Source: Bacteroidales bacterium (GTDB taxonomy: Bacteria; Bacteroidota; Bacteroidia; Bacteroidales; VadinHA17). From it: 36,383 nucleotides of DNA. This document shows, one piece after another, positions 11,292 to 22,673 of this stretch (the stretch's first letter is position 1; each line of letters begins with the position of its first letter). The stretch is taken from contig JAOZPG010000005.1 of assembly GCA_029932855.1 (NCBI GenBank), forward strand, positions 109,005 through 145,387, given 5' to 3'. The notes under the pieces were generated by a model that worked only from the letters and a program-made list of their open reading frames with translations, was not told where the DNA came from and did no database searches. A program made the position numbers and the translations under genes.

Positions 11292-12182
11292 CTAAAGACT
11301 GCATAAATAGCTCAGTTTATATAACTGCAGGATAAAAATACGGGGTTTATCCGAAAGAAGCTTTCCAACCATATTCCTGCGACAGGCCTTAAAAAGCAAT
11401 CTCAGTAAGTAATTTAATCCGAATGCGGCAAGCAGGCGGTATGTTCTGAGCAGCTTTACGTCCCTGTCAAAAGATTTTTTATTTTCTACAAGCTGTCTAA
11501 TATATTTAAGGTTCTCAACTCCTTTCCTGGTCTTATTTAAGAAAGTCCTTGCGCTATCCAGACTACTATGAACCAGCATATTATCAATATGAAGCACAGA
11601 TATCCCCGCCTCTTTAAGCCTGTATCCAAACAGGGTATCCTCGTGACCGTAGCTTTTTATTCTTTCATCAAAACCAATAGAACTAAACAGCTCTTTTGAA
11701 ATCATAAAATTAAAGCTTATAAAAGAGCGGTATGGAGATATGTTTCTCTCTTTTGCAGTCTTCATTTCGCGGGTCCTTCCATATTTCCATCTTAACAAAT
11801 GATCAGTCTTTGCCGGAGCTATATCAGAGAAGGCCATCCCCCCGATTATCACATCCGCCTTACCTGCCGATTCAAGGTAATTTCGGATAAATAAGGGCTC
11901 CTGCAGCTCTGCATTTGAGTCTATAAACAAAAGCCATTTGTATTTAGCCGAGCTGCCCAGGAAGTTCCTGTTGGCCGACCTGCCCAGCCTCTGTTTGTGC
12001 ATAAAGACCTTAACATACTTAAGCTTTTCAAGCTCCCCGTACTGCTTCCTGAAGAGCTCGTCAGAAAGATCATCCCCAATTATTATCTCGAAATCTATAG
12101 ACTCTTCTCCTGCCTGCTCACCAAGCTTTTCAACAAGGCTTTTTATATTACGATTATAATTTGGTATTAAAATTGACAGCAT
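11292..12182 (-). CDS. Family 2 glycosyltransferase
   Basis: A 296-residue GT-A type glycosyltransferase. It opens directly with the nucleotide-sugar fold MLSILIPNYNR, has an early acidic IIGDD (35-39), a DxD-like LFIDSN motif (D88) for metal/nucleotide binding, and a GHED motif (179-182) at the place of the catalytic base in GT2 enzymes. The C-terminal 60 residues are basic and hydrophobic (YRLLAAFGLNYLLRLLF), suggesting peripheral attachment to the inner membrane. It stands alone rather than in a polysaccharide cluster, so donor and acceptor cannot be predicted. It is divergent from the TlpA-like gene across a 74-base spacer. Confidence 0.85.
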   Translation of the reverse strand: MLSILIPNYNRNIKSLVEKLGEQAGEESIDFEIIIGDDLSDELFRKQYGELEKLKYVKVFMHKQRLGRSANRNFLGSSAKYKWLLFIDSNAELQEPLFIRNYLESAGKADVIIGGMAFSDIAPAKTDHLLRWKYGRTREMKTAKERNISPYRSFISFNFMISKELFSSIGFDERIKSYGHEDTLFGYRLKEAGISVLHIDNMLVHSSLDSARTFLNKTRKGVENLKYIRQLVENKKSFDRDVKLLRTYRLLAAFGLNYLLRLLFKACRRNMVGKLLSDKPRIFILQLYKLSYLCSL

Positions 12183-12202
12183 TTATATCAGGAAGGTTTT
12201 GG

Positions 12203-12234
12203 TTTCAGTTTATCAAAATAACAAAGTATCTTTG
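12203..12234 (+). promoter_or_regulatory. Promoter of the TlpA-like gene
   Basis: A perfect -7 box TATCTTTG (12227-12234) with TTTC at 12203-12206, 20 bases upstream, as -33. Expected transcription start is near 12240, which makes the ATG at 12257 the right start and excludes the upstream in-frame ATG at 12161. The -7 box lies inside the palindrome ACAAAGTATCTTTGT (12221-12235). Confidence 0.55.
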
Positions 12235-12256
12235 TGCTTTCCTAATTGAAAGACCA

Positions 12257-13669
12257 ATGAAAATGTATAAGTTATTACTAAATCTCCTCCTTGGGATAAT
12301 AATTTCAGGATCAGTTTACGGGCAATCTCACCATATTGAAATAAATATAAAAGGAATGGCCGACAGTAGTTTCATACTGGCCTATCATTATGGAAACAAG
12401 CAATTTATTTACGACAGCCTTGTTGCCGACCGGAAAGCTGTTGTTAGCCTGGAAGGTGAAGAGGCTATCCCCCAGGGAGTGTACCTTTTCGTGCTTCCCT
12501 CAGGTAATTATTTTGAGTTCTTAATAGGCGATGACCAGGAGTTCTCTATCTCAGCAGACCCGGAAGACCTTATGTCTTCACTTAAGTTCAAAGGCTCTGA
12601 TGATAACACTGCTTTTCTTGAGTACCAGAGCTTTATCCGGAAGGCGGGTGAGAGCAACATGCATATACAATCAAGGATAAACAGCCTTGATAAAGAAAAC
12701 GACTCCATAAAGATATACCAGGACATGCTGGAAGCCAGTCTGGAGAATATTGAAAGCTTCAAACAGGACCTTTACAAAGATCATCCCGGAAGTTTTGTAA
12801 GCGACCTCATAATGGCAATGTCTCCCCCCGAAGTCCCTGAATTTGATGTTCCTGCAAACACAGACAAGCCCGACTCAGTAAAAATGGCAATGAGTTATGC
12901 CTTTTACAGGGATCATTTTTTCGATGGATTTAATTTTGCAAACGGGGCACTTATACGCAGCCCTGTATATCAAAATAAGCTAAGTACATATTTTAACAGG
13001 ATACTGATACAATATCCCGATTCAATTATACCCCAGCTACACAAGATAGTTGATAAGTCCAGGGCAAATGATGATATGTTTCAATATACGGTAGTGTTCG
13101 TGCTTAATAATGCCATTGAAAGCAAGATAATGGGTATGGACGCAGTATTTGTTGATGTTGCCGAATCCTATTACCTTTCAGGAGAGGCTGACTGGGTTGA
13201 CTCTGCCTACCTTGAAAAGATTAAGGAAAGAGTGAATAAAACCAGGCCCAACCTTATAGGTGCAAAAGCCAAAGATCTGAAAATGGAAAGCATCAGCGGA
13301 GAGTGGGTGTCCCTGCATGAGACAGATGCCGAATATATTGTTTTATATTTCTGGGAACCCAACTGCGGACATTGTAAAAAAGCAAGTCCAATACTCTACG
13401 ATATATATACAAAATACAAGGACAGGGGGCTAAAAGTATTTGCCGTTGAAACACAGGCTGAACGTGAAGAATGGGAGAACTATGTTGAGAAGAACGGCCT
13501 CGACTGGATAAATGCATGGGATCCCCACCAGCTTAGCTATTTCAGGTTTTACTACGATATTATTGCCACCCCCACCATCTACCTGCTTGACAGGAACAAA
13601 ACCATCATTGCCAAAAGGATAGATGTTGAACAGCTTGAAAAGATGTTGGAGCAGATAATGGCTGACTAA
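12257..13669 (+). CDS. TlpA-like thioredoxin-fold protein with DUF4369-type N domain
   Basis: Read from 12257 the protein has 470 residues; a longer in-frame reading from 12161 would begin before the promoter and inside the divergent gene. It starts with a signal peptide (about 1-22, ending SGSVYGQ), then a beta-rich region resembling DUF4369 (about 23-120), a helical middle, and a C-terminal thioredoxin fold (about 330-470) with the redox pair WEPNCGHC (C370, C373) and the cis-proline segment ATPTIYLLD. Such proteins are periplasmic thiol-disulfide reductases in Bacteroidota. It is monocistronic and converges on the btu operon. The redox partner is unknown. Confidence 0.85.
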   Translation: MKMYKLLLNLLLGIIISGSVYGQSHHIEINIKGMADSSFILAYHYGNKQFIYDSLVADRKAVVSLEGEEAIPQGVYLFVLPSGNYFEFLIGDDQEFSISADPEDLMSSLKFKGSDDNTAFLEYQSFIRKAGESNMHIQSRINSLDKENDSIKIYQDMLEASLENIESFKQDLYKDHPGSFVSDLIMAMSPPEVPEFDVPANTDKPDSVKMAMSYAFYRDHFFDGFNFANGALIRSPVYQNKLSTYFNRILIQYPDSIIPQLHKIVDKSRANDDMFQYTVVFVLNNAIESKIMGMDAVFVDVAESYYLSGEADWVDSAYLEKIKERVNKTRPNLIGAKAKDLKMESISGEWVSLHETDAEYIVLYFWEPNCGHCKKASPILYDIYTKYKDRGLKVFAVETQAEREEWENYVEKNGLDWINAWDPHQLSYFRFYYDIIATPTIYLLDRNKTIIAKRIDVEQLEKMLEQIMAD

Positions 13670-13723: not shown

Positions 13724-14524
13724 TTACATACCCGTAACAAACTGCTTCCTGCCCTTATCGAAACTAAGAGTGCTGCCAGGGAATAATGAATTAAAGGCAT
13801 TATTCTCTATAAGGGCTTCGGGAGAATCATCAATAATGCCGGTTTCTGTCATCAGCCACAGCTTATCAACCTGGTCGATAACCATATTCAGGTCGTGGGT
13901 TGAAAAGATAACAGTTTTGCCCTGAGCGGCAAGGTCTTTTAGAAGGCGGATGACTTCATATTTATTGGGAAGGTCGAGAAATGCAGTTGGTTCATCCAGG
14001 ATCAACAGTTCTGTATCCTGGGCAAGGGCCCGGGCTATCATTGCTCTTTGTCTTTCACCATCTGACACTTCTGCAAGCATTTTATCCCTAAGGTCTGTAA
14101 GTCCTACCTTTTCAAGCGAGGAATCTATAAGCTCCCTGTCCTCCCTCCTGACCTTTCCTATCCAGTTGGTATATGGAAAGCGACCCAGGCTAACCAGCTC
14201 GTATACACTTAGATTACCTGTGCTTAAAGCTTCAGTGGATACAAAAGCAGTCTGCATTGCAAAATCGCGGCGGGTATAATTCTCAATATCCCTGTTTGCA
14301 AGAAGGATAGTACCTGACAACTGTGGTTGGAGGCGCATCAATGTACGTAGCAAAGTACTCTTACCCGAACCGTTCCTGCCAATAAGAGCTATTAACTTAC
14401 CCCGGCCGGCCGCCAGGGATATATCTTTTATCAGGGAGATATTTTTCCTTCCTGAAGCTTTCTTAAAACCGATCTCCAGTCCCACTGTTTTTAATAATAT
14501 GTTTCCTGCTTCTTTTTCCACCAC
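13724..14524 (-). CDS. btuD: Cobalamin ABC transporter ATP-binding protein
   Basis: This 266-residue ABC ATPase powers the BtuCD-F importer. It has Walker A GRNGSGKST (49-57), the signature VSDGERQR (153-160, a SDGE variant of the usual SGGQ), Walker B LLILDEPT (173-180) and the H-loop histidine H210. By sequence alone this subfamily serves B12, heme or ferric siderophores; its place at the end of an operon headed by a cobalamin riboswitch and btuB argues for B12. A 78-base spacer containing an imperfect duplication separates it from btuC. It converges on the TlpA-like gene, with the last codons inside an imperfect CGGGT/ACCCG hairpin that has no U-run. Confidence 0.88.
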   Translation of the reverse strand: MVEKEAGNILLKTVGLEIGFKKASGRKNISLIKDISLAAGRGKLIALIGRNGSGKSTLLRTLMRLQPQLSGTILLANRDIENYTRRDFAMQTAFVSTEALSTGNLSVYELVSLGRFPYTNWIGKVRREDRELIDSSLEKVGLTDLRDKMLAEVSDGERQRAMIARALAQDTELLILDEPTAFLDLPNKYEVIRLLKDLAAQGKTVIFSTHDLNMVIDQVDKLWLMTETGIIDDSPEALIENNAFNSLFPGSTLSFDKGRKQFVTGM

Positions 14525-14557
14525 TTATTTACCGGTTTTCTCCAGTTAGTTTTTTTG

Positions 14558-14614
14558 TGTTATCCTTTTCCTATTGAGTTATCACTGTTATGTTATCCCT
14601 TTCTATTGAGTTAT
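14558..14614. repeat. Imperfect duplication of about 24 bases in the btuC-btuD spacer
   Basis: TGTTATCC..TATTGAGTTAT occurs at 14558-14582 and again at 14591-14614 with a few differences. The second copy includes the stop codon of btuC (CTA at 14603-14605 on the plus strand), so the spacer may have grown by duplication of the gene end. Confidence 0.75.
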
Positions 14615-15649
14615 TCTTTTCTTTTTTAATATTATCCAGATTATCACGGGAATCCCCAGAAGGGCAGTAACCGAGTTTATGGGAAGTATCTTATCCGAAC
14701 CGGGAAGCTGTGATATTATATCGCTTATAAGCATTAATCCTGAACCGATAAGAATAGACCCCGGAAGCAGGAATGCATGATTGGATGTTCTTAACAACAT
14801 CCTGCCAATATGGGGCACGACTATACCGACAAAACCAATTGGTCCGCAAAAGGCAGTAACACTACCTGCAAGGATACTGGTACTTAAAAATACCAGGGCC
14901 CTGGCCGATTTTATATTTACACCCAGTGTGCTGGCATAATCCTCTCCAAGCAGGAAAGCATTTAAGAGTTTTACAGATGCTCCCGAGATAAGCATTCCAG
15001 CCAGAATAGCTAACAATAATATCCTTAACTGGTGCATGGTAATGTTCCCCAGGCTGCCCATTGACCAGACAATAAATGATTTAAGCAACGATTCATTGCT
15101 GAAATACTGCATCACTCCCACCAGGGCGGTGGCAATAGCTCCAAATAGTATCCCCAGTATCAATATTGTCATTATATCTTTTATCCTTACAGATACTGCA
15201 AAGATGAGAAGCAGTATCAATGCCGAACCAACACTGGCAGCTATCACCAGGGGCCAGTCGCCAAGACTGCTTGCCGAAGCACTTAGAAGCAATGGAGAAA
15301 AGCCCATTACAAGTATGGCAACACCAAGGCTGGCACCCGAACTGATACCAAGTACATAGGGACCGGCAAGGGGATTACGGAAGACTGTTTGCATCTGCAG
15401 GCCGCTTACAGAAAGGGCCATGCCTGCCAGCAAAGCAGTTAAAGCACGTGGGACCCTGAAGCTAAAGATTATTACCTCCCACTCATGACTTGAAGAGGAT
15501 CCTCCGGCAAGTATCTTCAGGCTTTCACCAAATGGAATATTTACCGACCCTATAAACACATCCAGCAGGAACAACAGCAATACCAGCAATGCCATTATAA
15601 AAAGAGGCAGGAACCTGTATCCCTGACTTGTGTTTATTGTTTTGACCAT
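14603..15649 (-). CDS. btuC: Cobalamin ABC transporter permease (FecCD family)
   Basis: A 348-residue polytopic membrane protein of the FecCD/BtuC family, expected to have about ten membrane helices and to form the homodimeric translocation channel for corrinoids. Recognisable landmarks are the N-terminal helix (FIMALLVLLLFLLDVFIG), the segment NPLAGPYVLGISSGASLG, the SFIVWSMGSLG segment, and GFVGIVVPHIGR, the conserved cytoplasmic loop that couples to the ATPase. Its start overlaps the end of btuF by 16 bases, showing tight coupling. Substrate assignment rests on operon context. Confidence 0.9.
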   Translation of the reverse strand: MVKTINTSQGYRFLPLFIMALLVLLLFLLDVFIGSVNIPFGESLKILAGGSSSSHEWEVIIFSFRVPRALTALLAGMALSVSGLQMQTVFRNPLAGPYVLGISSGASLGVAILVMGFSPLLLSASASSLGDWPLVIAASVGSALILLLIFAVSVRIKDIMTILILGILFGAIATALVGVMQYFSNESLLKSFIVWSMGSLGNITMHQLRILLLAILAGMLISGASVKLLNAFLLGEDYASTLGVNIKSARALVFLSTSILAGSVTAFCGPIGFVGIVVPHIGRMLLRTSNHAFLLPGSILIGSGLMLISDIISQLPGSDKILPINSVTALLGIPVIIWIILKKKRITQ

Positions 15650-16827
15650 AACTTTTTATAATAAACCATAGCAGTATCTTTCAATACCCCCGGGTGAAAT
15701 ATATTAACCAGGTCTTTTAATACCTGCTGAGGACTGGTAACTCCCGACTCCCAGAAATCATTTCCTCCGCCCTCTCCCATTCTTTTATTGTTATTATACA
15801 CTTTTGAATTAATCACAGGAGAAAAATGACTGAACCGGCTGTCATTATTTAAAATATCATCTATGCTGCCGGCAGTCCCCGGGTTAATCCATATATCTGT
15901 CCCTGCAGCCTTCTTATAAACACTCTCTATATCCATAGGCACGGCTTTCGACGATTCAAGGCTGTCCCATATATAAATCCCTCCGGCATCCCTGATGAAA
16001 TTTGCAAGAACAGTATTGCCGGGTGAAACATACCATACATCCTTCCACGGAAGACCTTCCATAACCAGGGGCCTGTTTGCGCTAAAAGCAGCTGTTTGCC
16101 TGATCTTTTCATATTCCCCGGCTATTGAGTCGAAATAAGCGGCCGCCTCCTCCTCCATATCATAAAAAGCTGCAACAAATTTTATCCATTCAAGCTTTCC
16201 CAAAGGGGTTTTTTCCAGGTAATCGCCGTTCATAATAACCGGTATATCCAGGTCTGATATCTTGTTAATAAATGCAGTTATCTCACTTTCAATGCCATAC
16301 ATCATTACTATATCGGGCTTCTGCAGTACCAGCAACTCGAGGTTCATGGACTGCTCATATCCGACATCAATTATTTCTCCCCTTTTCATAGCCTCGATCA
16401 CATGTTTATTATTTACCAGTCCTGAACCTGAAATACCTACAATGCTTTCAGTACAGCCCAGGCTCTCCAGGAAGGCAATATGCGTGGTTGATGTGCAAAC
16501 CGTACGCTTAACAGGAGTTTTAATAAATACATGTTCTTTTAAAAGAGATTTATCAATAGCAGAAATGTCGGCGGCAAGCAAATAACTGTAACTAATACCA
16601 CTGGCTCCCTGCCATGGATCATAAACCTCAACCAACTTGTACCCGGGATATTTCTTTATAGAAAAGCCACTGGCATACCTGTTCTCCATAAACTCAGCCT
16701 TTGCACCATATTTGGATAGGGATCCATTGTTTCCGGCTTCGTAATTCCTGCCTTCATTCTTGCAGGATACTATCAGAATGAAAACAATTATAAGTCCAAA
16801 ATACTGAAAAAAACGAGTCCTGTTCAT
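15634..16827 (-). CDS. btuF: Cobalamin-binding lipoprotein of the ABC transporter
   Basis: A 397-residue substrate-binding protein. The N terminus is a lipoprotein signal with lipobox IVSC (C22) followed by KNEGRN, not the strongly acidic pattern of surface-exported lipoproteins, which fits a periplasm-facing anchor. The fold is the two-lobed TroA/BtuF type, with landmarks VKRTVCTSTTHIAFLESLG (start of the first lobe), VGISGSGLVNN, and KPDIVMMYG. In Bacteroidota this family is annotated as BtuF-like or iron-siderophore binding; the riboswitch context favours B12. Its ATG shares a base with the protease stop (TAATG) and its own end overlaps btuC. Confidence 0.87.
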   Translation of the reverse strand: MNRTRFFQYFGLIIVFILIVSCKNEGRNYEAGNNGSLSKYGAKAEFMENRYASGFSIKKYPGYKLVEVYDPWQGASGISYSYLLAADISAIDKSLLKEHVFIKTPVKRTVCTSTTHIAFLESLGCTESIVGISGSGLVNNKHVIEAMKRGEIIDVGYEQSMNLELLVLQKPDIVMMYGIESEITAFINKISDLDIPVIMNGDYLEKTPLGKLEWIKFVAAFYDMEEEAAAYFDSIAGEYEKIRQTAAFSANRPLVMEGLPWKDVWYVSPGNTVLANFIRDAGGIYIWDSLESSKAVPMDIESVYKKAAGTDIWINPGTAGSIDDILNNDSRFSHFSPVINSKVYNNNKRMGEGGGNDFWESGVTSPQQVLKDLVNIFHPGVLKDTAMVYYKKLWSKQ

Positions 16828-19079
16828 TAGTCTGTTAATGATATTTTTCCAGATAAAACAAAGCTGTCAGATCTTATCTTCAGTATATAAAAGCCGGCAG
16901 GCAGATATGAGACATCAATACTGAGACGCTCATTTTGTCCGTAAAACTTCCTTTTATATACCAGTCCGCCGCTTATGTTTACAATCTCAGCTTCCAGATA
17001 TGATGAATATTCAAATGGAATGTCAATCTGTATATTCCCCCGGCCGGGATTGGGGAAAATCTTTAAAGCAGCAACCGGCTTCTTTTCCTGTGTATCCTCT
17101 ATTCCCAGTACAGGCATTCCGCCACAGAGATCAGCACTGATTGCCAGTGAGATATTCATTGTCTCCCCCTCTGTATGATCATCAAAACCATACCATCTGT
17201 CTGTATAAAACATGGCAGTGTTTAAACCAGTGCTCCCCCTTGGTTCCGATTGCATCAATGAGAACATATCGGTCAATGGTCCCGGTGCTGCATTATCATA
17301 GGATATTTCATAACCTGTCCAGAAATTACCACTAACACTTATTATTGTATCGAAGTATAAAGTATAATCGCTTGAATCCTTGAAAGAACTGAGATAAACC
17401 TTTTTTCCCGCTATCTCATCCAGCGGTTCAGTCTCCCCTGTCCACACCTTAAAGACCACAGAATCAGCCCCGCTGTTATACTCCACATCCCCTGTTTTAT
17501 AATACAGGCAAATCAGGTTCTTTTCTCCCGAATTATATATTTTCTCTGCATATTTGCTTAGCCTTATACTGTTATGACCTGTCCATAAGCCATCTCCGGG
17601 CACACCCTCTGTAAACTCTTTCAGTATCAGCTGTTCACCTGCACTTATATTTCCGTTAGTATCACATGATACCGTGTCATAAGGATCAAAGCCGGAAATT
17701 GAGCTGATACCTGAAGCGTCGGGATCCAGCCAGGCTTTTAACTGCTCATCAGCTGCCGGATAATTAGTCCATGATTCCGATAACTTTTGAAAATAATCAT
17801 TAACTGAATTTGAACAATTTGCCTCTCCCCCAACCAGGCTACCAACAAGCAGGTGATCCTGGTCAAAAAGAGGGGCTCCCGATGAGCCCTCCTCAGTTGT
17901 ACCCATATCCCAACGCAGTATGCGCCAGAACACATTATTATCATAATCATATCCTGTAAGTGTACCTGTTTCAGGAGGGTCATTATCAACAGATATCTTC
18001 TTGATATCCCCCTGGGGATGGTGAATGCTAACTGTACTGCCGGGCGTATTACCCGATATGTCCCAGCCGGCATAATAAGGCCTGTAATTCATTGGAGGCA
18101 GCCTGCTTAAGCTCACAAGTGAGAAATCTATATTTTCATTTACAGCCAGCAGGTCTGCACCTGATACCGACTGGCTTACATATCCGTCTATAAGTCCGAC
18201 ACAATAAGGACTTTCATAATTAAATACAGATACAGCTGAGTTTGCCTGGTCCTGGTTATCAATACAATGGCAGGCAGATATTAAATAAGGTATCCTGTCC
18301 TCCCTGGCATTATTTACCAGCACACCGCTGCAAAAGCCCCAGGCAGGACCTGGCTGATGATCGGCATAATAGATATAGAGCCTTACAACCGACCTTTTTT
18401 CTTTTTGCCAGTCAGCACCCTCGTCGCAGTTTATGTTTACATTACAATATCCCGATGTTCCATACCTGCCGTCTTTTAATTCATCTGTCCCAAAAATATC
18501 TCTAATACCATGGCCCACCTGGCCGATATTCAGTTTGGAACGGTTTATGGCCCCATCTGGAAAGTAACATTCTACAATCACCTTATCTCCGGGTACAGGC
18601 TGAACGGCAAGCAGTCCCGATTCCTTGTTATTCTCCCTGCTAAAAGCCCCGAGTATAAATTCCCTGCCGGGAGAGTAAATAAACAACCTGGCACTGCCTG
18701 ATAATTCAAATGAATCGAACAGGAGGCTTAAAGAGCTGGCTCCCTTGCTTTCAATAACTGCTTCCCACAGCAATCCTCCTCCTTTCAGCTGTGTCAGCCG
18801 GCCCGAATTAAAAGGATTTATATCAACGGCTATTGAGCTGGCATATATATAGGGCCTGTTCTTGCCAGCAAGTTCTATCTCCCCGGCAGCAACCTGTTTG
18901 GACAATAATTCCACGGGAAGACTGAGCTCAACTGCCTTAATATCAGTCAAAGATCCCGGTTCACCCCTTGGCAGGCCGCCACTGCTGACCTGAGCATATG
19001 AGATGGCAGGAAAAAACACAAGCAATACTCCTGAAAGCAGGCAGGAGAATATCTGTTTACATAAATATCGAACTTTCAT
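16827..19079 (-). CDS. Secreted lysyl-endopeptidase-like serine protease with T9SS sorting domain
   Basis: A 750-residue protein with a signal peptide (1-30, ending ISYAQ), a beta-rich propeptide-like region (about 40-200), a trypsin-fold domain (about 205-455) and a C-terminal T9SS type A sorting domain (about 670-750; LKIFPNPGRGNI at its start, GFYILKI near the end). The catalytic triad is visible as H271 (ISACHC), D318 (NIDFSL) and S400 (GSSGAP). The opening SGYCNVNINC, the FCSGVLVNN strand, IHHPQGD and the spacing match the lysyl endopeptidase (Achromobacter protease I) group of family S1. It should be exported across the outer membrane and attached or released. It lies between btuG and btuF, with its stop overlapping the btuF ATG as TAATG. 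Lysine specificity is not proven. Confidence 0.85.
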   Translation of the reverse strand: MKVRYLCKQIFSCLLSGVLLVFFPAISYAQVSSGGLPRGEPGSLTDIKAVELSLPVELLSKQVAAGEIELAGKNRPYIYASSIAVDINPFNSGRLTQLKGGGLLWEAVIESKGASSLSLLFDSFELSGSARLFIYSPGREFILGAFSRENNKESGLLAVQPVPGDKVIVECYFPDGAINRSKLNIGQVGHGIRDIFGTDELKDGRYGTSGYCNVNINCDEGADWQKEKRSVVRLYIYYADHQPGPAWGFCSGVLVNNAREDRIPYLISACHCIDNQDQANSAVSVFNYESPYCVGLIDGYVSQSVSGADLLAVNENIDFSLVSLSRLPPMNYRPYYAGWDISGNTPGSTVSIHHPQGDIKKISVDNDPPETGTLTGYDYDNNVFWRILRWDMGTTEEGSSGAPLFDQDHLLVGSLVGGEANCSNSVNDYFQKLSESWTNYPAADEQLKAWLDPDASGISSISGFDPYDTVSCDTNGNISAGEQLILKEFTEGVPGDGLWTGHNSIRLSKYAEKIYNSGEKNLICLYYKTGDVEYNSGADSVVFKVWTGETEPLDEIAGKKVYLSSFKDSSDYTLYFDTIISVSGNFWTGYEISYDNAAPGPLTDMFSLMQSEPRGSTGLNTAMFYTDRWYGFDDHTEGETMNISLAISADLCGGMPVLGIEDTQEKKPVAALKIFPNPGRGNIQIDIPFEYSSYLEAEIVNISGGLVYKRKFYGQNERLSIDVSYLPAGFYILKIRSDSFVLSGKISLTD

Positions 19080-19091
19080 ATTATAAATTCT

Positions 19092-19244
19092 TTAGCTTGT
19101 TACTCCTGCTTCCGGCAAAATGTTTCATATTAGCTCGTTAATTCTGCTTCCTCCCAGATATTTCATAAAGGAAAGATAATTCAATTTTTGCTTATTGTTC
19201 ATCTCAGTTAGCCTGAGTTTGTTTGTTCATCTTAGTTAGCCTGA
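19092..19244. repeat. Two imperfect direct duplications in the btuG-protease spacer
   Basis: The 179-base spacer has a 38-base period pair starting TTAGC at 19092 and 19130, sharing the pattern TTAGC.CGTTA..CTGCTTCC and ending TTTCAT. A second pair, GTTCATCTCAGTTAGCCTGA at 19197-19216 and 19225-19244, differs at one base. No TAnnTTTG promoter box is visible on the minus strand here, so the protease is probably read from the btu promoter. Confidence 0.75.
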
Positions 19245-19258
19245 TATCCTGATCTGAA

Positions 19259-20329
19259 TTAATTAAATACCGCTGCATTGGGACCTATTCCTGCTTCGAT
19301 AGAGTTAAGCTGCCTGCCGTTGTCATCAAAAACAAGTATCGTGGCATTTGCATCATATTTATTTGGCATAACATATATATCACCACTTACAGGATCCACA
19401 TCCACTGCATTGAAATTTCCTGAAATCAATGCTTCTGCAGGCAGGTGCTGATCATTAACATTCATCTTGTAGATATTCCCTTCATTCAGGTAATAAAGCG
19501 TTGAGCCATCGGGACTTATTGCAAGCCTGTTTGGATTATATGTAGCCAGGCCGGAAATTATCTCGTAACTGGCTGCCACACTATAACTATCCCTGTCAAC
19601 AGAAACAAGCCTGGGGTATTTGTCTATTGTGGCATTCCAGTTTTCATCAAAAGTATTTTCTCCCCTGCAGAAAACCCATATCTTACCATCCTTATCCTCA
19701 ACAAGGTCTGTTGCTCCGGCACCAACCACAACACTTGCTATTACTTCATCATTATCCGGGTCTATAATGCTTATGGTACTGTCTTTATCCCATCCCCCGC
19801 TATTGGCTACAAACACTTTGCTTCCCGACATAATAAGCTTTTCCGGTCCCTTGCCAACGGCAATCCTCTTTACACTGTTAATTAAAAGGCTTGAGAGGTC
19901 TATCAGATAAACAAATCCCTCTGTGGCTCCATTAGTGATATAAGCTTTATTATCCGACACAGCAAGCATATACCTTGGATAATCCAGTCCCCGCATGGTG
20001 CCAACAGATTTGAAAGTTTCCATATCAACGACCTCAATCTTTTGTGAGTTATTAACCACTATAAAACCCATATCCCCAATAACCGAAAAGGACTGCACAA
20101 CATCCCCCAGGCTTCTCATCTCATTTGCCGTCTGAAACAAATGATTCTCTACTGTCAAATTCTTCTTATCATAATATGTAATAGAGCCATTATTATTGCC
20201 ATATGCCCCTTCGTTAACTATAAACACCCCATGAGTAAAACCTGTATCATTATTATTCTCTTCCTTGCTGCAGGAATAAAATACAAAAAATACAGCTGCC
20301 ATAAAAAATAATTTCGCTATTGATTTCAT
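19259..20329 (-). CDS. btuG: Surface cobalamin-binding beta-propeller lipoprotein (BtuG-like)
   Basis: A 356-residue lipoprotein: signal peptide with lipobox FYSC (C20) followed by the acidic SKEENNND, which resembles the Bacteroidota lipoprotein export signal for cell-surface display. The rest is a YncE/DUF5074-type seven-bladed propeller, starting GVFIVNEGAYGNNNGSITYYD and with blade phrases such as KVFVANSGGWDKDSTISIID and GKIWVFCRG. In Bacteroides thetaiotaomicron BtuG is a beta-propeller lipoprotein that captures B12 at very high affinity and sits on BtuB. Position immediately after btuB (62-base gap) supports the same role here. Ligand binding is inferred from family and context. Confidence 0.87.
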   Translation of the reverse strand: MKSIAKLFFMAAVFFVFYSCSKEENNNDTGFTHGVFIVNEGAYGNNNGSITYYDKKNLTVENHLFQTANEMRSLGDVVQSFSVIGDMGFIVVNNSQKIEVVDMETFKSVGTMRGLDYPRYMLAVSDNKAYITNGATEGFVYLIDLSSLLINSVKRIAVGKGPEKLIMSGSKVFVANSGGWDKDSTISIIDPDNDEVIASVVVGAGATDLVEDKDGKIWVFCRGENTFDENWNATIDKYPRLVSVDRDSYSVAASYEIISGLATYNPNRLAISPDGSTLYYLNEGNIYKMNVNDQHLPAEALISGNFNAVDVDPVSGDIYVMPNKYDANATILVFDDNGRQLNSIEAGIGPNAAVFN

Positions 20330-20391
20330 GTCATTTTTTTATTAGTTAGTAATTCTGCCGATTATTATACTTGTTCATTTTATTTATTCAT

Positions 20392-22437
20392 TTATTTACC
20401 ATCCATAGCAGCTGTCCCCATTATCAATGTCAGGCCCAGCATATACGAACGCCCGGGAACAGGGTATGCCCTGATCACCTGGTAGTCTGCGTTTGTGAGA
20501 TTATTTATCCTGAATTGCAATATGGATCCCACCAGGTTATCATCAAATGTATAGCCTATAGAAGCATTCATAACAAAGTAAGGATCAAGGCTGTAAAACA
20601 TATCATTATCACTCGTGCTATACCTCCTGGAACTCACAGCCGACCCCAGGTGCATGAACATACCATTAAGAGAGATCTCTGCAGTGCCACGTGCAGTATG
20701 CTTTGGTATATATCTCAACTGATAATCCTGGAAATCAGCTTCATCCGTATTTCCTGCAGTAGCTATTGTCATAGTATAGCCAAGTGAAAGCTCAAGCCTG
20801 GCCCGTCCTGCTTTAACTCCCGTTTCCAATGACGATTCCATGCCCCTGGCCCACACTTTTTTGTAGTTTACAGGTATCCAGTATGAAAGATCGGGTATCC
20901 ATTGTATCTGGTTGTTAACCATGTTTGTGAACAGGTGAATATCCATGTTGACAAAGCTGTTAAGCGAATTCTTCATTTCCATATTTATGCCTGTGCCTAT
21001 ATCTGCTCCCCAGCCTTGTTCAGGCTTGAGACCAGGGTTGCCTCCGGGTTTCCAGTATTTATCATTTAGTCCGGGAAGACGGTATTTCGAAGCCACATGT
21101 GCCCTTATCCATGCTGCATCACCGGGAAAGCTGTATTTAAAGGAAAAAGAATACAGCGGAGGAGGCCTTTCAAAAGAATTGAAATGCATTCTTAAGGAAG
21201 CGGCAATATCTATACAGGCCTTTTTATACCTTGCAGCAGCAATTATATTGGCTCTGTACTCTTTTACTGCTGTGCCATACGACTTAACATCAGCTCCTAA
21301 AAGGCTGTAATTAGCTCCCATATCTATACTCAGACCTGAAGCATAAAAATACCTGTAATTGGCATCCAGGCTAAACCTTTTCGACCTGATCTCTGAATCT
21401 ATAAGATAATTATCCTCAATACCGGGACTCTTGTCAAGGTAACGGAGGTAGTCGCTAACATAGGCCGACCTGATCTCCATGCTTGATCTCTGCTTCAGTT
21501 TCTTCCATTTTACGAAAATCTTTAGGCTACTGTCTGTCTGCTCCTGCAGGCTTTCCTTATAGGAACCAAGCAGTGCGGGAATTTCTTTCCTTTTTAGCTG
21601 TAACCAGCTTCCCAGCTGTAAATAATTATTGCCCCCAAGCCTGAGATTAATATCCTGCAACAGTCCAAAGCTTGTGAGGCTGTTATTATCCATCCTCAGG
21701 TGGGGAGATCCGGTTTTCTCATTATCCGTATAAGGAAAATCATTCTCTGAATCCCTCATATATGAAGCCAGCATATAGCTTAGATTATCAGTCCCCAGCT
21801 TAATTTTTAATCCGGCACTATTATTAGAAAAACTGGCTGTCTCAATATTTGTAAGCACAGATACTCCCTTCTGCCAGCTTGACTTATTACCTATATTCAC
21901 CACCCCTCCAAAAGCAGCATCACCATAGATGCTTCCCGAACCCCCGTAGATGACAGATATATCATCAAAAAGAAATACAGGTATCACAGATAAGTCTGCA
22001 ATACCTGTTGTAGGTGAGTTCAGGATAAATCCATTCCAGTTAAGCTGGGTATGTGAGGATGATGTACCTCTCATAGAGATGGTAGAAAGAGAGCCTGGAC
22101 TTCCATAAGAATTAATTGTCAGCGGCATACTTTTATCAAGAAGCTCTCCGATGCTCAGGGAAAAGTTCCTGCTTATCATGGCCTTCCTGATCTTAACAGT
22201 TCTGAACAATTCCGAGTAAAACTGCTTCCTGTCCTGTCTTAATTCAACTTCCTCTATATAAAGAGAATCGATATCAGGATATAAGTCCGGGCTATTACTA
22301 TTCAGTGCCGGCAGGGACAAATGCCCATGCAGGGTCATAAATAAAGCTACATCCGGAAAGGCATAAGAAGGAACTGAGGCTGCAAAAAGAGCCGGCATCA
22401 ACAATAAATAAAACCTTATTTGATAAAATAGTTTCAT
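20392..22437 (-). CDS. btuB: TonB-dependent cobalamin receptor
   Basis: A 681-residue outer-membrane receptor, first gene after a cobalamin riboswitch. It has a signal peptide (about 1-26, ending PSYAF), a possible TonB-box-like LYIEEVEL (59-66), a plug domain (about 80-185) with SPGSLSTISMRGTSSSH and YGGSGSIYGDAAFGGVVNI, and a 22-strand barrel to the end. There is no carboxypeptidase-like SusC-type N-terminal domain, consistent with a BtuB-type rather than SusC-type receptor. The last strand SYMLGLTLIMG is followed by a short unusual tail, TAAMDGK, instead of the usual terminal aromatic residue. The ATG lies only 24 bases after the B12 box. Confidence 0.92.
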   Translation of the reverse strand: MKLFYQIRFYLLLMPALFAASVPSYAFPDVALFMTLHGHLSLPALNSNSPDLYPDIDSLYIEEVELRQDRKQFYSELFRTVKIRKAMISRNFSLSIGELLDKSMPLTINSYGSPGSLSTISMRGTSSSHTQLNWNGFILNSPTTGIADLSVIPVFLFDDISVIYGGSGSIYGDAAFGGVVNIGNKSSWQKGVSVLTNIETASFSNNSAGLKIKLGTDNLSYMLASYMRDSENDFPYTDNEKTGSPHLRMDNNSLTSFGLLQDINLRLGGNNYLQLGSWLQLKRKEIPALLGSYKESLQEQTDSSLKIFVKWKKLKQRSSMEIRSAYVSDYLRYLDKSPGIEDNYLIDSEIRSKRFSLDANYRYFYASGLSIDMGANYSLLGADVKSYGTAVKEYRANIIAAARYKKACIDIAASLRMHFNSFERPPPLYSFSFKYSFPGDAAWIRAHVASKYRLPGLNDKYWKPGGNPGLKPEQGWGADIGTGINMEMKNSLNSFVNMDIHLFTNMVNNQIQWIPDLSYWIPVNYKKVWARGMESSLETGVKAGRARLELSLGYTMTIATAGNTDEADFQDYQLRYIPKHTARGTAEISLNGMFMHLGSAVSSRRYSTSDNDMFYSLDPYFVMNASIGYTFDDNLVGSILQFRINNLTNADYQVIRAYPVPGRSYMLGLTLIMGTAAMDGK

Positions 22438-22459
22438 GTTTTACCCGAACATATTTATA

Positions 22460-22636
22460 GTGGCAGGTCTTCTGACTTTCCCTCCTTAGATCACCTTCCC
22501 GGTTTTAACCAGTGGCAGATAATATCTAAGGCTTAACGGGATCACAGCAGCGGGTACTGTCCAGGAATATTCAAATAAATGAGGCACCTGGTTCCCTTTT
22601 AATTAACCCGGATGAAGTTCCGGGTCAACACCACCT
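22460..22636 (-). promoter_or_regulatory. Cobalamin riboswitch controlling btuB
   Basis: On the minus strand the conserved elements occur in order: GGGAACCAGGTG (22585-22596), GCTGCTGTGATCCCG (22537-22551), GCCACTG (22510-22516), and the B12 box AGTCAGAAGACCTGCC (22462-22477). A further 7-bp hairpin ACCCGGA/TCCGGGT (22606-22625) lies at the 5' end. These are the diagnostic sequences of the class I cobalamin (AdoCbl-type) riboswitch. The btuB ATG at 22437 follows the B12 box by 24 bases and no terminator hairpin fits between them, so control is probably at translation start: bound cobalamin would hide the start region and shut off uptake. Confidence 0.95.
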
Positions 22637-22641
22637 GATGA

Positions 22642-22673
22642 CAAACCTACATAAAGTTATCTATTAAAACAAT
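22642..22673 (-). promoter_or_regulatory. Promoter of the B12 uptake operon
   Basis: On the minus strand ATTG (22670-22673), 20 bases, then a perfect -7 box TAGGTTTG (22642-22649). Predicted transcription start, near 22636, coincides with the 5' boundary of the riboswitch. A second weaker -7-like TAACTTTA lies just upstream. Confidence 0.5.

Follow-up and report, generated by a model that had tools for sequence, protein, structure and literature searches.

A gene for a predicted secreted serine protease is, as far as our searches go, a real, conserved and so far undescribed component of B12 loci in one family of Bacteroidota. The gene lies in a stretch of 36,383 nucleotides from a Bacteroidales bacterium of the lineage VadinHA17 (GenBank assembly GCA_029932855.1, contig JAOZPG010000005.1, positions 109,005 to 145,387 of the forward strand), hereafter called the window. 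It occupies positions 16827..19079 on the minus strand and encodes a lysyl-endopeptidase-like protein of 750 amino acids that is predicted to be exported. It is part of an operon with the order riboswitch-btuB-btuG-protease-btuF-btuC-btuD, all elements of which are on the minus strand. The protease is a conserved part of this B12 operon; that it acts there as a B12-controlled, exported lysyl endopeptidase freeing cobamides from proteins is a reading to which we give an even chance.

Conservation of the gene's position was assessed in 99 genomes, including that of the window, 59 of which belong to the family (58 besides its own) and 40 of which lie outside it. A relative of the protease was found at an E-value of 1e-15 in 72 of the 99. 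Gene maps were made for 65 protease open reading frames in 56 of the genomes, with neighbours matched to the window proteins only, and a protease was called linked when btuG lay at most 600 base pairs (bp) upstream or btuF at most 400 bp downstream; G025, with a riboswitch and a DUF4465 gene upstream, was added to this class. The protease is linked in at least 40 of the 98 other genomes, i.e., 35 of the 58 from the family and 5 of the 40 from outside it, and these are lower bounds because the unmapped places among a total of 106 were checked solely for a riboswitch on the same contig. Linkage spans 11 of the 15 genera of the family, the window's own genus included, and the five outside genomes represent five other families, one each. 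A single contig carries the full order btuB-btuG-protease-btuF-btuC-btuD in 23 genomes, each of which belongs to the family. Within the same distance limits, the protease follows btuG at 31 places, precedes btuF at 35 and does both at 26. The gap to btuG has a median of 51 bp (range 3 to 535, n = 31) and that to btuF a median of 1 bp (range -124 to 302, n = 35), with 23 of the 35 gene pairs overlapping or at most 5 bp apart. Outside the family, the order is protease-btuF-btuC-btuD in G065, btuB-btuG-protease-btuF in G064 and btuB-btuG-protease in G072, G080 and G096; the contigs of G072 and G096 end nearby, and in G080 a thioredoxin gene comes after the protease. An earlier sequence-only reading of the window would have been refuted if the protease had been missing from this position in every relative. 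This is not the case, and its retention at the same position, mostly with short gaps, strongly supports the shared operon which that reading proposed.

Cobalamin riboswitches were detected in 92 of the 99 sampled genomes. At 27 of the 106 protease places outside the window's own genome, in as many genomes, the protease shares its contig with such a riboswitch, which in all 27 cases lies upstream, on the same strand and within 10 kb. This count omits the rows of the own genome, two additional fragments of a gene in G085 and a sub-threshold riboswitch in G073. Among the 40 linked genomes, the riboswitch is shown in 27, and the contig ends before it in a further 10.

The operon is divided in genus g2. 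The order in G003 is riboswitch-DUF4465-protease-btuF-btuC-btuD, and G025 shows the riboswitch-DUF4465-protease head on a contig that stops within the protease. In G016, protease-btuFCD is found on one contig, on which no riboswitch was detected, and riboswitch-btuB-btuG on another, while G030 gave no protease match. DUF4465 is described as a B12-binding family (PMC13398666). Thus, the split operon ties the protease to B12 genes, not to one particular neighbour. DUF4465 is also encountered in L094 (3657-5393) and L088 (4807-6552), where two additional genes stand between the riboswitch and btuB. They encode a DUF4465 protein and a type IX secretion system (T9SS) protein of 324/333 amino acids, known only by its sorting tail, which is a candidate B12-locus surface protein.

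The protease is under purifying selection. Its ratio of non-synonymous to synonymous substitution rates (dN/dS) was 0.06-0.19 over seven pairs, in one of which (G032-G057) dS was saturated, and falls within the range of the neighbour genes. On a tree of 70 rows, made by a quick method and with several long branches and weakly supported deep forks, the label linked or unlinked needs 6 changes versus a mean of 22.9 after shuffling; none of 500 shuffles gave so low a number, and near-copies in the tree favour such clustering. The short L097 was left out of the alignment, and the short L037 and L119, which has no triad, were left out of the tree. The unlinked paralogues of G015, G032, G042 and G064 separate from the linked copies of the same genomes, and the second copies of G028, G033 and G034 likewise stand apart; the linked copy of G080 groups among unlinked ones. 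In a sample of the class, at least 113 of 296 genomes (own included) carry the protease family. Six places within 10 kb of a riboswitch among the matches listed there (G237, G261, G318, G325, G276 and G386) were considered and rejected, none being in a same-strand btu operon; in G237 and G261, two opposite-strand genes stand between protease and riboswitch. Proteases of this kind are widespread in the class, and linkage to btu genes therefore seems to characterize this bacterial family and some of its relatives instead of the proteases in general. A plasmid search returned 3 records at 29-32% identity, and a search of PHROGs with the protease gave no match.

The predicted layout of the protease consists of a signal-peptide-like N terminus, a propeptide up to about K202, a catalytic domain (~207-469), an unclassified region (~464-672) and a T9SS type A tail (674-746). 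Read by eye, the N terminus is hydrophobic and ends in AISYAQ. The C-terminal sorting domain was recognized by TIGR04183 (33.4 bits, cut-off 23) and by PF18962, Por_Secre_tail (42.5 bits, cut-off 27), and no peptidase family besides Trypsin_2 was found in the protein with Pfam at E 0.01. The closest solved relatives are lysyl endopeptidases, the best being 4nsy (E 2.7e-29), with the catalytic triad of which H271, D318 and S400 are aligned. The triad is intact: among the linked rows, window included, H and D are present in 41 of 41 and S in all 40 with a letter there. D428 is aligned to D225 of Achromobacter protease I (API), the aspartate in the S1 pocket, which we take to confer lysine specificity. 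It is kept in 40 of the 40 linked rows with a letter at this position and in 20 of the 27 unlinked rows outside the cluster, and suggests that the enzyme is in fact lysine-specific. The cysteines C212, C218, C250, C272, C293 and C422 occupy all six positions that form the three disulfides of API, and Cys is found in 33 to 41 of the 41 linked rows, depending on the position. Thus, the protein resembles API (4nsy, 1arb) in its catalytic domain, triad, S1 aspartate, six cysteines and N-terminal extension before the mature domain. It differs by its T9SS tail, its extra unclassified domain, its location in a B12 operon and the lack of API His210, which is replaced by V, T, S, N or R in linked copies. 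A Lys-Asp pair directly precedes the mature start, and position 202 is K or R in 36 of the 37 linked rows with a letter there. Lys-Asp is found at 202 in 1 of the 27 unlinked rows outside the cluster, but the contrast is weak because 20 of these 27 are gapped there. The conserved Lys202 suggests self-activation by cutting at lysine.

Residues ~464-672 (window 17064-17690) are conserved as a domain, in which P, Y, G, N, A, F and W columns are invariant and a WTGHN-type motif occurs. No family-wide Pfam match was obtained for it: eight Pfam families each matched a single one of the 23 members, with E-values of 0.0037 or weaker, and the PDB gave no matching chain. AlphaFold modelling of the window protease and its relative L035 gave a mean predicted local distance difference test score of 30.7 and a predicted template modelling score of 0.21, and the model was not used. 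At E 0.001, the protease is the sole member of its family found in its own genome, where four further matches concern the sorting tail only.

At the head of the operon in the window, an aptamer of the RF00174 cobalamin riboswitch (22445..22649) scores 89.8 bits (gathering score 31.5). It ends 7 nucleotides before the ATG of btuB, as read from the sequence, so that the riboswitch probably acts on translation initiation of btuB; the protease would in that case be controlled via the shared transcript. The btuB-like gene (20392..22437) encodes a TonB-dependent receptor of 681 amino acids (PF00593, PF07715), whose top NCBIfam match is TIGR01779, TonB-B12, at 101.9 bits, under the cut-off of 599.7. 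It is followed by a btuG-like gene (19259..20329) for a DUF5074 protein of 356 amino acids (PF16819, 108.6 bits, above cut-off) with an N terminus that, judged by eye, is lipobox-like. Downstream of the protease are genes for a btuF-like periplasmic-binding protein (15634..16827; Pfam family match, no NCBIfam match), a btuC-like permease of the FecCD family (14603..15649; Pfam, with BtuC as top NCBIfam match under cut-off) and a btuD-like ABC ATPase (13724..14524; Pfam, with FecE as top NCBIfam match under cut-off). The sequence-only reading had put a T9SS-type serine protease with an H271/D318/S400 triad between btuG and btuF in a riboswitch-headed unit, and the riboswitch score, the Pfam calls, including Trypsin_2 and Por_Secre_tail, and the 4nsy alignment bear this out. 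Also as described there, the protease stop and the btuF start overlap by one base (TAATG), and btuF and btuC overlap, by 16 bases. The btuG-protease gap of 179 bp (19080..19258) contains no consensus promoter, which agrees with the same reading. An exact TTTG-N19-23-TANNTTTG pattern, which we take to be the promoter consensus, was not found in it, nor was a sigma-70-like site on the minus strand. The pattern is a weak test because it also misses any promoter in front of the riboswitch. Spacing and conservation suggest that the protease is co-expressed with the btu genes. Inside the gap lies a 38-bp tandem duplication (19092-19167), adjoined by a second short direct repeat, and this may be one cause of the gap exceeding the median in relatives. 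Downstream of btuD, a thioredoxin-like gene (DUF4369/AhpC-TSA) and a glycosyltransferase gene are present at 11292-13669; their place is kept in many relatives, even those without the protease or btu genes.

Export by T9SS requires the genome to carry the machinery, and SprA, which the search for T9SS components covered, is present (TIGR04189, 2765.5 bits). The genome also contains MetH, while MetE and CbiC gave no match in it. No CbiC match was obtained in any of the family's 59 sampled genomes, which should therefore depend on corrinoid from outside. Corrin synthesis was rejected as a predictor of the protease: CbiC was present in 2 of the 99 genomes only, neither in the family, and its absence cannot discriminate because it is seen whether or not a genome carries the protease. 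Another N-terminal MetH-like stretch (model positions 3-320) is located at G000:C33:155745-156611, with one in-frame TGA inside the match.

The sequence-only reading knew of no role for a secreted protease in B12 loci, and no description of a protease within a locus for B12 uptake came up in the literature searched. The word protease refers to a laboratory reagent or assay wherever it occurs in PMC6143338 and PMC12751083, and neither protease nor peptidase occurs in the main texts of PMC8941943, PMC10404256 and PMC13398666. In PMC13374852, it concerns the breakdown of added BtuG, plus one reference. The btu loci of Bacteroides thetaiotaomicron are described as BtuB/BtuG/BtuFCD with BtuH, BtuJ, BtuK and BtuL (PMC6143338, PMC10404256, PMC12751083). 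They share with the window a cobalamin riboswitch, a TonB-dependent receptor, BtuG, a periplasmic-binding protein, a permease, an ATPase and extra surface genes. However, their extra proteins, as described, are mostly lipoproteins, whereas that of the window is a T9SS serine protease. PF16819 propellers are listed beside B12 genes in PMC13398666. In Flavobacterium psychrophilum, a cobalamin riboswitch precedes a TonB-dependent transporter gene, and the passage on it names no protease (PMC9723704).

The anatomy of the operon fits a corrinoid-freeing job, with cobamide proteins as the presumed substrate. When cobamide is scarce, the riboswitch would leave the operon on; conversely, B12 would repress the protease gene. 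The signal peptide would direct the protease across the inner membrane, T9SS would export it across the outer membrane, and a cut at the conserved Lys202, probably made by the protease itself, would activate it. Presumably located at or near the cell surface, the active enzyme may cut cobamide-carrying proteins after lysine, such as cobamide enzymes of dead cells or the B12 carriers of neighbours or hosts. BtuG and BtuB would then take the freed corrinoid, and BtuFCD would import it. Somewhat more tentatively, at a little under an even chance, the enzyme may be a B12-controlled surface lysyl endopeptidase dedicated to pirating cobamides from proteins, as the vitamin counterpart of gingipain-HmuY haem release. 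If so, its targets would include the carriers with which neighbours and hosts bind B12 very tightly and which are unusable by uptake of the free vitamin alone.

The closest mechanistic parallels would be gingipains with HmuY and protease-associated import, both of which use unrelated proteases. Gingipains are C25 cysteine proteases of another fold, and the cofactor they help to acquire is haem, whereas the window protease belongs to Trypsin_2. In Porphyromonas gingivalis, they act with HmuY/HmuR in haem uptake, and the likeness is that proteases, a cofactor-binding lipoprotein and a receptor together take a tetrapyrrole from protein (PMC3040768). In Fus-type import, a protease gene is associated with a TonB-dependent receptor for a protein-bound nutrient (PMC6793856, PMC6071955). 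However, the protease described there is of the M16 type and acts on the imported protein, whereas that of the window is a Trypsin_2 serine protease. The main text of PMC6793856 mentions neither B12, cobalamin nor a serine protease.

Several observations weigh against cobamide release by the protease as the purpose of the gene. No protease match was obtained in any of 13 genomes of genus g8. Riboswitch loci were mapped in 12 of them, and 8 have btuB...btuF-btuC-btuD before the same thioredoxin gene without a protease, 4 of these 8 also being without a recognized btuG; the loci of the remaining four genomes are cut, different or unclear. Thus, the operon runs without the protease in g8, and uptake can do without it. 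In G010, G028, G033 and G036, the protease is retained next to the thioredoxin gene, with no btuFCD adjoining it. No riboswitch is seen in L040 (G010) and L089 (G033), even at E up to 1; in G028 and G036, the contig stops shortly before the protease. Together, the g8 loci and these four relatives argue against a strict requirement for the protease. Also, three linked genomes, G016 (L046), G065 (L064) and G072 (L061), have no detected riboswitch despite the presence of upstream sequence. Pfam and PDB searches recognized no corrinoid-binding domain in the protease; as the middle domain has no consistent matches, such a domain can be neither named nor excluded. Furthermore, BtuG is reported to acquire B12 from intrinsic factor with no protease involved (PMC6143338). 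Within g8, btuF follows btuB directly in L104, L122, L123 and L125, which have no recognized btuG. A candidate remnant of the protease in G005 (L100 9123-9542) shows 33% identity over only 40 N-terminal residues.

The combination of MetH with no MetE found implies that low B12 would mean low methionine, and a B12-controlled secreted protease may then answer methionine shortage by supplying peptides as a source of amino acids. A general digestive role would be natural because related proteases are widespread in the class, where the listed places near riboswitches lie outside btu operons. Nevertheless, this explanation is unlikely: a lysine-specific endopeptidase alone would, on reasoning, free little methionine, the protease of G003 sits between DUF4465 and btuFCD, and in the linked maps it adjoins btu genes, the neighbours there having been matched to window proteins, with no search for peptide transporters. 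The shared operon, the probable location on the same side of the cell and the tight spacing to btuF would equally suit a protease that processes or sheds the surface proteins of its own locus, i.e., BtuG, BtuB or DUF4465, for carrier release or receptor turnover. We consider this distinctly unlikely, as the nearest solved relatives are secreted lysyl endopeptidases, the g8 operon does without the protease and, in g2, the protease lies outside the btuB-btuG unit.

It could also be that a general secreted protease landed in the operon by chance and that its co-transcription is harmless. The missing match in g8, the four genomes with a protease but no adjoining btuFCD and the three linked genomes in which no riboswitch was found would all be consistent with such a passenger. 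However, 11 genera of the family, and five further families, have the gene next to btu genes, and it is kept with btuFCD where btuB-btuG sits elsewhere. Its purifying selection is in the range of the transporter genes, and the link is clustered on the tree. Thus, chance presence is very improbable. Release of cobamides from proteins by a B12-controlled, exported lysyl endopeptidase remains, at an even chance, the explanation we prefer.

A large part of the corrinoid in the environment is believed to be bound to protein, and work on B12 uptake has mostly used the free vitamin. If cobamide release is indeed the role of the protease, some Bacteroidota would digest cobamide proteins to obtain the cofactor. 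A single gene conserved across the family allows protein-bound cobamide to be tested as a usable pool, and its presence or absence at one and the same place in different genera offers a ready-made comparison.

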